Assembly (NCBI RefSeq): GCF_014205215.1
Contig: NZ_JACHNC010000001.1
Location: 3,911,001 to 3,975,000, forward strand
DNA: 64,000 nt
From: Actinoplanes lobatus
GTDB taxonomy: Bacteria > Actinomycetota > Actinomycetes > Mycobacteriales > Micromonosporaceae
Direction: 5' to 3'
The notes under the pieces were generated by a model, which saw nothing but the letters and a program-made list of their open reading frames with translations, did not search any database and had not been told where the DNA came from. This document shows positions 38,319 through 41,257 of the stretch, piece by piece. Made by a program: the position numbers and the translations under genes. Each line of letters starts with the position of its first letter. Position 1 is the stretch's first letter.

Positions 38319-38357
38319 GCCCCCTTCCACCTCGCGCCCACCTCGCCCACAGCTGGC

Positions 38358-38571
38358 GATCTTGGACGTTTTCCCACCGGATTCGGTGACAAGACGTCCA
38401 AGATCCGGCCACCCTGGTGGCCCGGGCACCCACATCCGGCGACCTTGGACGATCAACCACCGAATCTGGTGGGCAAACGTCCAAGATCCGGCCACCCTGG
38501 TGGCCCGGGCACCCACATCCGGCGACCTTGGACGATCAACCACCGAATCCGGCGGGCAAACGTCCAAGATC
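38358..38571. repeat. Array of three palindromes in an 83-bp tandem repeat
   Basis: Palindrome 1 (38358-38405) has perfect 12-bp arms GATCTTGGACGT/ACGTCCAAGATC. Palindromes 2 (38444-38485) and 3 (38527-38568) have arms CTTGGACG/CGTCCAAG around CCACCGAAT...GGTGG or GGCGG. The intervening CCGGCCACCCTGGTGGCCCG spacer occurs twice, giving a period of 83 bp. The array lies between the converging tesB and DUF308 genes and may act as repeated terminators or REP-like elements. Confidence 0.8.
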
Positions 38572-38707
38572 CGCGTGAGGAGACCGCGACGCGCGTCACC
38601 GTGCGGGCCACATCCCCGGGCGCCTGCGGCGCGGGCCTGTTTCGCGGCGCACCAACGGCGCCTCGCCGGGACGGCTCGTCCATCCCGACGCAACCGGGGA
38701 ACAAGCC

Positions 38708-39655: not shown

Positions 39656-40402
39656 TCACCACTTCGGCCCGACGACCTCGTCCAGCCGCGCCACAGCGCT
39701 CCGCCGGGCCACCGGGAGAGCGTTGCGCGGCGCCATCCGCCAGTCGATTCCGAGCCGGTCGAGTGCCTTCTGGCAGATCCGCATGATGTCCACGGATTCA
39801 TTAACGAAGTTGTAACGTGGGTAGCTGTACGGCCTTCCCTGGGTGATTACGCGGTTGATGAACCGGCTGCCATCGGAATGAAAAAGCCCGCGAACGAGGC
39901 GCCCCGGATATTCGTCGACGAATTCCTGCTGCCAATCGGTGAGGGTGATCTCCCGCCGGTGTTCGGCTCCCGGGCCGTGTTGCGGGAGAAGACAGGGCCA
40001 GTGCGTCCAATGTGCGCGAACGCCGATGTACCCCGGATTCTCCTGATAGCCGGCGGTGCGTGCGCCGCAAACCGTCATGGCGTGGGTCACTTCATGGATT
40101 AATCCGAGATACCGGTTGTCGCACGTGACCGTCAGCAGCGGGACGCGCTGTGCCGTCAGGAGGTGGCCGTCTCCCAGGTACTGGCCCAGGAGGTAGCAAT
40201 ACGACGCGACGTCGCCCGGTCTCCGCGGTGGGTAAGCGCATCGCCGGCAACGCCGATCGATCTCTGGCGTGCGCGCGTGTTTGCCCTACAGTCGGCACGC
40301 GACTGTATTGCGGGACAGTCGCAGCTTGCGATGAATCTCCGAAAAAGGAATTCCGGCGGCATGCATCTCGAGCGCGGCGGTTCGCAGGTGAGGGGAATGC
40401 AT
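39656..40402 (-). pseudogene. HTH/LAGLIDADG-like protein gene with in-frame amber codon
   Basis: ATG 40402 follows GGAGGGG and opens a frame reading LEMHAAGIPFSEIHRKLRLS, then NTVACRL, then TAG at 40288-40286 (codon 39). The same frame then continues without a stop for 209 codons: a C-R-R-C pair, first LAGLIDADG-like motif YLLGQYLGDG (40195-40166), WPCLLPQHGPG, second motif LVRGLFHSDG (39898-39869), and ends DEVVGPKW. This matches a recurrent actinobacterial family with an N-terminal HTH, zinc-ribbon-like Cys pair and homing-endonuclease fold. No start codon lies between the TAG and the first motif, so without readthrough only a fragment from GTG 40090 could be made. It may be a recent pseudogene or a readthrough gene. 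Confidence 0.75.
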
Positions 40403-40438
40403 TCCGTGCCCCTCCGCGACGGATGGCTCGGTTATTTG

Positions 40439-40511
40439 TGTCCGCGGTGGGATTCGAACCCACACTTGATGCTGTTTGAGAGCATTGCCTCTGCCGTTGG
40501 GCTACGCGGAC
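40439..40511 (-). tRNA. tRNA with Leu(CAA) anticodon but short variable loop
   Basis: The 73-nt cloverleaf has a perfect 7-bp acceptor stem GTCCGCG/CGCGGAC, a D stem GCC/GGC, an anticodon stem ATGCT/AGCAT around CTCAAAC (anticodon CAA, nt 34-36, 40478-40476), a T arm GTGGG-TTCGAAT-CCCAC, discriminator A73 and no encoded CCA. The variable loop is only five bases (CAAGT), whereas bacterial leucine tRNAs are class II with a long variable arm. The anticodon reads UUG. It lies divergent from the pdtaR-like gene, and the amber-interrupted gene begins 36 nt past its 3' end. Confidence 0.88.
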
Positions 40512-40587
40512 GAGCATCATCAGGCGGGCGCAAGTTTGGTCACGCCAACCCGAGCACTCGACAGCCTACCCACTAGGCTTAGGGCGG

Positions 40588-40611
40588 CGACACCCAGATA
40601 CCCGGGTGTCG
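40588..40611 (+). other. Hairpin in the pdtaR-like gene leader
   Basis: CGACACCC and GGGTGTCG form a perfect 8-bp stem with an 8-nt loop 31 nt before the start codon, downstream of a possible -10 TAGGCT (40573-40578). Confidence 0.4.
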
Positions 40612-40642
40612 TGACATCGACGTTCTGGGGGTAGGGGTTTCC

Positions 40643-41257
40643 GTGGCCGACACGCAGGCTGGTGCCGAGCGCAAGCGGGTGCTCATCGCCGAGGACGAGG
40701 CCCTCATCCGTCTGGACCTCGCCGAGATGCTCGTCGAAGAGGGCTATGACGTGGTCGGCGAGGCGGGTGACGGTGAGACGGCCGTGCGCCTGGCCGAGGA
40801 CCTGAAGCCGGATCTGGTGATCCTCGACATCAAGATGCCGATCATGGACGGTCTGGCGGCGGCGGAGCGGATCGCCGGTGGGCGGATCGCGCCGGTGGTG
40901 ATTCTGACGGCGTTCAGTCAGCGTGATCTGGTGGAGCGGGCGCGGGCGGCGGGTGCGATGGCGTACCTGGTGAAGCCGTTCCAGAAGTCGGATCTGGTGC
41001 CGGCGATCGAGATCGCGTTGTCACGGTATTCGGAGATCTCGGCGTTGGAGTCGGAGGTCGCGGGGCTGACGGAGCGTCTGGAGACGCGGAAGTCGGTGGA
41101 GCGGGCCAAGGGCGAGCTGATGACGAAGTATTCGATGACGGAGCCGCAGGCGTTCAAGTGGATTCAGCGGACGGCGATGGATCATCGGATGACGATGCGT
41201 GAGGTGGCTGACCGGATTCTGGCCGAGCAGCAGGCGGAGGCTGATCCGCCGAGATGA
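40643..41257 (+). CDS. pdtaR: ANTAR-domain response regulator (PdtaR-like)
   Basis: A 204-residue antiterminator. The receiver domain (residues 10-125) has phosphoacceptor Asp62 in LVILDIKMPIMDG, acidic pair Glu17/Asp18 and Lys in YLVKPF. The C-terminal ANTAR RNA-binding domain (about 135-197) reads LETRKSVERAKGELMTKYSMTEPQAFKWIQRTA with conserved Ala and aromatic residues. On phosphorylation by a PdtaS-type kinase, not found here, it would bind paired RNA hairpins and prevent termination. GTG 40643 follows GGGGGTAGGGG. It overlaps the next lipoprotein gene by 4 nt. Confidence 0.93.
   Translation: MADTQAGAERKRVLIAEDEALIRLDLAEMLVEEGYDVVGEAGDGETAVRLAEDLKPDLVILDIKMPIMDGLAAAERIAGGRIAPVVILTAFSQRDLVERARAAGAMAYLVKPFQKSDLVPAIEIALSRYSEISALESEVAGLTERLETRKSVERAKGELMTKYSMTEPQAFKWIQRTAMDHRMTMREVADRILAEQQAEADPPR

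Follow-up and report, generated by a model that had tools for sequence, protein, structure and literature searches.

By the textbook, bacterial tRNA-Leu belongs to class II and carries a long extra arm. The window, by which we mean the whole stretch of 64,000 nucleotides analysed here (G000:C1:3911001-3975000 of the 10.4 Mb genome of Actinoplanes lobatus), contains a tRNA gene with the leucine anticodon CAA and the short variable loop of class I, which raises the question of what such a gene does and how it came to stand where it is. An earlier note on this DNA, which gave no strand for the gene, had considered that the tRNA may be charged unusually, act outside bulk translation, or be a regulatory tRNA-like RNA tied to the adjacent ANTAR gene. 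Our comparisons indicated that it is very probably an elongator tRNA-Leu that decodes UUG and would be charged by LeuRS, a member of a short-armed set standing in the place of a long-armed gene beside the response-regulator gene that we take to be pdtaR.

The gene lies on the minus strand at 40439..40511. ARAGORN reported tRNA-Leu(caa) at 40438-40511, and Rfam RF00005 matched 40511-40439 with 59.6 bits (gathering score 29, E 2.2e-10); this one tRNA was all that the Rfam search of the window returned. The gene is 73 nt long without CCA, with an acceptor stem of 7 bp and the discriminator A73, which is followed by CAAAT, and thus CCA is not encoded; the identical tRNA in G019 (locus L038) has an encoded CCA. 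The anticodon CAA at 40476..40478, placed by ARAGORN (position 34) and by the sequence, reads UUG, and the variable loop CAAGU at 40464..40468, delimited in the alignment and the parsed rows, has five bases, below the at least 10 nt of a class II variable arm. According to the alignment and the pair counts, the D arm (40487..40502) has a 3-bp stem (10-12 with 23-25), C13 and A22 unpaired, A14 A15, G18 G19, and A20a, which is the D-arm layout of the long-armed tRNA-Leu genes of A. lobatus.

Covariation gave the same structure. Among the stem cells of 17 distinct sequences of relatives, 99.1% are paired, and 44 cells are changed on both sides, compared with 11.3 ± 2.5 in column shuffles (0 of 500 shuffles were as high) and at most 7 in the control in which the structure was slid by 1-3 columns. 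Both-side changes were seen in 10 of the 20 pairs, and two of the three D-stem pairs covary. In the single-sequence minimum of ViennaRNA the acceptor, D and T arms were paired and the expected anticodon arm was not, so the cloverleaf rests on the covariation and the two tRNA programs. The cloverleaf is real; a chance cloverleaf was ruled out by the Rfam score, the covariation and a folding free energy z of -3.73. The architecture that the earlier note had read from the letters, class I with CAA, A73 and a five-base loop, is confirmed by ARAGORN, Rfam and covariation, and the conservation of the cloverleaf in relatives, on which that reading had been made to depend, was found in all 17 sequences at the pairing rate given above.

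All 79 Rfam tRNA matches of the A. lobatus genome were re-read with ARAGORN in their surrounding stretches. A normal tRNA-Leu(CAA) elsewhere, which the note had suggested looking for, was not found in this genome by Rfam, ARAGORN, a blastn query or a pattern; the pattern recovered exactly the five long-armed tRNA-Leu genes (CAG, UAA, UAG, GAG and GAG), with no CAA among the matches. UUG could also be read by tRNA-Leu(UAA), and the number of CAA genes alone is therefore no proof of essentiality. A further short-armed tRNA-Leu, with anticodon CAG, lies inside the tRNA array L030.

Several other tRNA-like loci were observed during this inventory. L027 (G000:C1:3557520-3557628, minus, 109 nt) is tRNA-like, with an encoded CCA and a 36-nt hairpin insert in the anticodon loop; plain ARAGORN was silent on it and, with introns allowed, called it tRNA-Leu(aag). 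It was rejected as a hidden CAA tRNA, being a different tRNA-like gene with a hairpin insert. The arrays L030 (G000:C1 4746.2-4747.1 kb), L032 (5683.1-5684.3 kb) and L034 (8888.2-8889.0 kb), with five, ten and seven divergent tRNAs, respectively, look like phage or mobile tRNA arrays. Five near-alike odd tRNA-like genes occur at L031, L035 and L037 (G000:C1 5.03 Mb, 9.04-9.05 Mb and 10.29 Mb), with GTAGCGCAGAGGT.GTCGCGCC in the 5' half and anticodons read as Ser, Ala, Cys or none. A Gly-Cys-Val tRNA cluster is duplicated with identical tRNAs 25 kb apart (L002 and L003, G000:C1 669 kb and 694 kb). Within the window, a tandem repeat of period 83 with 2.7 copies occupies 38346-38573, behind an acyl-CoA thioesterase gene.

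Whether a tRNA of this shape can be a leucine tRNA depends on where LeuRS looks. For E. coli, the available text of a review (PMC9976931) lists A73, A15-U48, G18G19 and A20a as mattering for leucylation, describes the sequence and folding of the arm as uncorrelated with leucylation, and reports variants without anticodon and variable arms that stay active; the premise that a bacterial LeuRS needs the long arm is contradicted there for this species. These determinants lie outside the variable arm, so the long arm would be dispensable, and the window tRNA retains all of them. All 119 chromosomal short-armed CAA genes that were parsed have A15, A20a, U48 and A73 (78 distinct; some rows repeat a genome, the bins L187 and L204 are included, and 12 short genes were unparsed), and all 119 have A46 G47 U48 in the variable loop. 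The parser demanded A14 and GG, whose invariance rests on alignment A1 (17/17). The same four bases were found in 6/6 chromosomal short genes with other anticodons, 19/19 array rows and 8/8 phage rows. As a control, A15-U48-A73 occurs in all six other tRNA-Leu genes of A. lobatus, and also in 7 of its 73 non-leucine tRNAs (Arg, two Ala, three Lys and Glu), which makes these determinants compatible with leucine and not specific for it.

This overlap, together with the class I fold, is what could speak for a tRNA that carries another amino acid, either because UUG was reassigned or through mischarging. The codon evidence points the other way. UUG codons of short-form genomes fall into leucine columns of the long forms in 85% of cases in pdtaR (40 codons) and 97.6% in LeuRS (6 codons), about as often as CUG does (90% and 95%, respectively), and reassignment of UUG is unsupported. 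The 3-bp D stem follows the leucine layout, and when the model R1 was scanned against the window and 36 of the 37 own loci of A. lobatus (L003 omitted), the nearest other tRNA was the short tRNA-Leu(CAG) with 70.2 bits, followed by tRNA-Lys as the best non-leucine tRNA with 58.5. We consider charging with an amino acid other than leucine highly improbable. The genome has one full-length bacterial LeuRS, which would charge the short tRNA through A73, A15-U48, G18G19 and A20a; charging by this enzyme and expression of the gene are what the sequences lead us to expect. Neither an unusual charging nor a role outside bulk translation, as the note had proposed, found support in the retained determinants and the codon columns.

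Recognition by LeuRS without a long arm, with A14 and A73 as determinants, is described for human mitochondrial tRNA-Leu(UUR) in the accessible part of PMC9976931. That tRNA is organellar and the anticodon branch of its transcript is partly unfolded, whereas the gene studied here is of a bacterial and phage kind with its own invariant core. A short variable loop is also shared with a tRNA-Leu(TAG) of a mycobacterial tRNA cluster, which, as far as the text of PMC6582537 at hand goes, is an extra copy beside a normal chromosomal gene; in A. lobatus the short gene is the only CAA gene found.

The second question is whether the tRNA has anything to do with its neighbour. The gene at 40643..41257 on the plus strand encodes a pdtaR-like response regulator, for which Pfam confirmed Response_reg and an ANTAR domain, as the note had read it, and synteny marks it as a conserved neighbour. 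The tRNA lies 132 nt away in divergent orientation, separated from it by the spacer 40512..40642. Divergence from pdtaR at 98-292 nt was observed in all 30 loci from L038 to L067, and among the 80 named short-form loci that were read (of at least 119 matching), 73 have pdtaR no more than 700 nt away, in divergent orientation in 64 cases and in the same direction in 9. The conservation of the locus beside the ANTAR regulator, which the note had expected, thus holds, and it is this constancy that would favour a regulatory or non-decoding tRNA-like RNA functionally tied to pdtaR. We regard such an RNA as very unlikely. A long-armed tRNA-Leu(CAA) stands at the same place in 10 other genomes, and the neighbourhood is therefore independent of the tRNA class. 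The orientation differs in the nine named loci and in L103, the Rfam search of the window reported just a tRNA, and the genome searches brought up no further CAA tRNA. The decoding architecture is conserved along with the leucine determinants, and because the anticodon loop, T loop and A73 are all kept, the loss of decoding or charging features that would mark a regulatory tRNA-like RNA was not seen. The gene is best read, from its sequence and its setting, as a working elongator tRNA-Leu and not a regulator, and while its fold class departs from the textbook, its function probably does not.

A further 21 genomes of the sample of relatives (16 negative for the combined pattern and 5 with the long form) were probed at pdtaR, of which 17 yielded the locus. 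One of these loci is at a contig end, and the other 16 all have a tRNA-Leu(CAA): 10 long, 5 short and 1 intermediate (L099). L091 is the same genome as L045, and in L103 the tRNA has the same direction as pdtaR. On a pdtaR tree of 46 loci (without L091 and L095, and with L099 uncounted), at least nine switches between short and long forms were required. Because pdtaR adjoins the tRNA and may share its history, a second tree was made from LeuRS, whose gene is about 80 kb from the tRNA in A. lobatus. For 30 of the 36 Actinoplanes genomes, this tree required at least five switches; it joined G026 (short) and its sister G002 (long) at 99/98. LeuRS thus does not follow the tRNA class.

The DNA around the switch was also compared. 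In an alignment of 14 Actinoplanes loci inspected by eye, the tRNA-proximal part of the spacer differs by class and the farther part is alike. Close to the tRNA, CCTT is found in 7/7 long-form loci, and a GCAT end in 6/7 of them and in 0/7 short-form loci, again by eye. Over the 140 nt before the tRNA, three pairs of short-form and long-form loci were 80, 73 and 50% identical, and their tRNAs were 52, 56 and 54% identical. No sigma-70-type promoter consensus was found in the spacer between the tRNA and pdtaR.

The two forms hardly ever occur together. Both were sought with one strict pattern for the CAA forms, and the count was made by hand after a spurious 67-nt match in G549 had been discarded. 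In the class sample of 158 genomes, 70 had only the short form, 38 only the long form, none both and 50 neither, where 16.8 genomes with both would be expected under independence (Fisher p 2e-12, a value that ignores relatedness). In the sample of 60 relatives, which includes A. lobatus, 40 had the short form, 5 the long form (one of these, G047, has both) and 16 neither (p 0.04). Short and long CAA genes exclude one another, the exceptions being G047 and G003, which has its long form at pdtaR but also a short CAA gene inside a tRNA array. Most of the 16 pattern-negative relatives carry a variant of one form or the other; the strict pattern missed these, so a variant second copy could escape it likewise.

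In the phylum, a long-arm-only pattern matched 222 of 396 genomes. The short form is widespread, and the named genomes that have it are from, among others, Mycobacterium, Mycolicibacterium, Amycolatopsis, Pseudonocardia, Nocardioides, Cellulomonas, Micromonospora, Salinispora, Actinomadura, Streptomyces sp. SAJ15 and Candidatus Planktophila. In the family f111 the short form alone was matched in 11/11 sampled genomes, ten of which are 1.2-1.4 Mb in size. Two of the seven named loci without pdtaR nearby look foreign or mobile: L187, from a Planctomycetaceae bin, whose locus has 33 further tRNAs, and L204, from a Treponema bin. Short-armed CAA genes were found on only four plasmid records, one of which is 11.9 Mb. 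ARAGORN, as run here, labels the short form tRNA-Leu without remark. In the open-licence literature searched, we found no account of short-armed tRNA-Leu as an actinobacterial chromosomal gene or as a common phage form. Short-looped tRNA-Leu is known from mitochondria and one mycobacterial tRNA cluster (PMC9976931 and PMC6582537, in the portions available), and what is new is the breadth and the swapping in place.

A short form could have arisen in place if the resident long gene had simply lost its variable arm, and the shared locus and anticodon are consistent with this. The window gene also resembles a canonical class II tRNA-Leu(CAA) in A73, A15-U48, the D-arm layout and, for 10 other genomes, the place beside pdtaR. 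It differs from it in the missing long arm and in C13, where the long forms of A. lobatus have G13. Over 40 ungapped aligned core positions, the Actinoplanes short form is only 65% identical to the Actinoplanes long form, compared with 84% to the named short forms and 77% to chromosomal short UAA and UAG genes, which supports replacement of the gene lineage within Actinoplanes, and the bases immediately preceding the tRNA also differ between the classes. A longer arm on a short-form body was found in L099 (88% core identity to the Actinoplanes short form) and in phage Faust (L141, 80%), so arms were lost or gained somewhere. For the Actinoplanes gene we judge loss of the arm in place to be rather unlikely and replacement to be the better reading. 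Identity of the Actinoplanes short form to phage short forms is 69%; compared with one another, phage short forms reach only 63%, and the identity of array short forms is 72% both to the Actinoplanes long form and to the named short forms, which leaves one common lineage of all short forms unproven.

The replacing genes may belong to a wider pool. A blastn search with the window tRNA matched 61 phage records. Nine phage loci were read, with hosts in Gordonia, Corynebacterium, Streptomyces, Lactobacillus, Prochlorococcus, Mycobacterium, Cronobacter and Pseudomonas, and eight of them have a short-armed tRNA-Leu (CAA, UAG, UAA or AAG), the ninth being the 81-nt form of Faust. Phage Wakanda also carries a long-armed tRNA-Leu(UAG). 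In IMG/VR, at least 120 stretches had the short CAA pattern, and ARAGORN called a short tRNA-Leu(CAA) in 79 of the 80 that were read; on these contigs, chosen for short CAA, the tRNA-Leu genes with other anticodons are short in 45 cases and long in 14. Outside arrays, bacterial short tRNA-Leu genes with UAA were found in G038, G042, G053 and G059 and with UAG in G024, G038, G048 and G053, and array members have GAG, CAG and, in G003, CAA. In our reading, the window gene belongs to a short-armed tRNA-Leu set that is also seen in phages and tRNA arrays and whose CAA member holds the chromosomal site next to pdtaR, standing in place of the long-armed gene in many actinobacteria. Common descent with the phage genes is something we infer, as are the direction and the vehicle of any transfer.

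One candidate vehicle lies directly downstream. About 36 nt after the tRNA, at 39656..40402 on the minus strand, there is an HTH and LAGLIDADG homing-endonuclease-like gene with an in-frame TAG at codon 39 (40288-40286); its frame contains both LAGLIDADG motifs. In the copy of G019, the nearest relative of the window copy, Pfam HTH_23 was over the cut-off and LAGLIDADG_3 below it (17.4 of 22.5 bits), and the aligned start codon is ATC. With the TAG in one and the ATC start in the other, both copies look decaying. The two motifs with their acidic residue are present in 20 of 22 rows, the first being unfilled in L041 and L174, and some relatives are publicly annotated as LAGLIDADG family homing endonuclease.

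The gene was found once each in 10 of the 24 same-genus genomes searched, in all ten directly behind tRNA-Leu(CAA), six behind short and four behind long forms. The distance from the tRNA is 33-42 nt in nine of them, and in the broken copy of G020 the match starts from residue 17, 83 nt on. Further copies or remnants behind the tRNA in G017, G024, G025, G026 and G033 bring the number to 15 of 30 Actinoplanes genomes. Among the 80 named short-form loci (of at least 119), eight have an endonuclease-like gene, which lies 33-131 nt away in seven of them and in L174 is matched only from residue 85 onwards. In G042 the copy is not behind a CAA gene but flanks a long-armed tRNA-Leu(UAG) at its 5' side. 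The family is large, with 4641 proteins, and its link with tRNA-Leu is that seen at the loci read here. No relatives were confirmed in viral contigs in a search that reaches close relatives only.

Like LAGLIDADG homing endonuclease genes, this gene has two motifs, is free-standing beside a conserved gene, and shows a patchy and decaying distribution. It differs from them in its N-terminal HTH and in that all copies found in the genus are behind tRNA-Leu(CAA), and homing is hypothetical here. For the 13 Actinoplanes genomes whose copies were usable, two changes of tRNA class were counted on the endonuclease tree against five on the LeuRS tree, which fits joint replacement of the tRNA and the endonuclease gene, and four of the five long-form copies form one 100/99 clade on the endonuclease tree, with G003 as the exception. 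A simple association of the endonuclease gene with the long form is not claimed (6/7 long versus 9/23 short genomes, Fisher p 0.08; phylogenetic pairs, median p 0.5), and since this co-occurrence is not significant, homing is no more than a hypothesis.

The broken endonuclease-like gene and the frequency of short tRNA-Leu in phages and arrays might also make the tRNA appear as a pseudogene or functionless debris of a mobile element. Compensatory changes in the stems, invariant determinants, the lack of another detected CAA gene and retention of the short form in very small genomes all argue otherwise, and in phage work the loss of the host's tRNA-Leu-CAA is described as complemented, according to the available text of PMC10865867. 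We hold it to be extremely improbable that the gene is debris; a working elongator tRNA-Leu remains the preferred reading.

The same source, as far as its text was available, offers a model for replacement by phages. Mycobacteriophages Omega and Gaia integrate at the host tRNA-Leu-CAA, and Gaia disrupts it without rebuilding and supplies its own copy; the host tRNAs disrupted in such lysogeny are called essential (PMC10865867). We found that the tRNA-Leu(CAA) of Gaia (L432:9121-9203) is long-armed and 83 nt long. In the Omegavirus Thibault, a 46-nt stretch beside the integrase gene is identical to the 3' part of mycobacterial short-armed genes and takes in the short loop, which suggests that the tRNA-Leu(CAA) of M. 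smegmatis would be short-armed. If so, a Gaia lysogen swaps a short for a long form. As in this tRNA-dependent lysogeny, where a phage tRNA of the same isotype takes over at the host locus, the Actinoplanes site appears to have received a tRNA of the resident's isotype; unlike there, neither an integrase nor a prophage was seen at the locus in the window, and the linked gene is endonuclease-like. In Corynebacterium phage StAB (L135), an annotated HNH endonuclease gene lies 47 nt behind a short tRNA-Leu(CAA), an arrangement that parallels the bacterial one of tRNA and endonuclease.

We tentatively suggest that the tRNA-Leu(CAA) locus is a hot spot, at which a LAGLIDADG gene behind the tRNA, or a tRNA-carrying phage, might repeatedly overwrite the resident tRNA along with itself, so that mobile DNA would set the class of the tRNA and leave the code unchanged. 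This reading is possible, and we would not yet put it above its alternatives. The rule that bacterial tRNA-Leu is class II is contradicted for many genera of a much-studied phylum. Sister species with different classes at one locus provide a natural experiment on the demands that LeuRS, EF-Tu and the modification enzymes make on the variable arm. If the swaps are driven by endonuclease genes or phages, a core tRNA would be replaceable without a change of the code.
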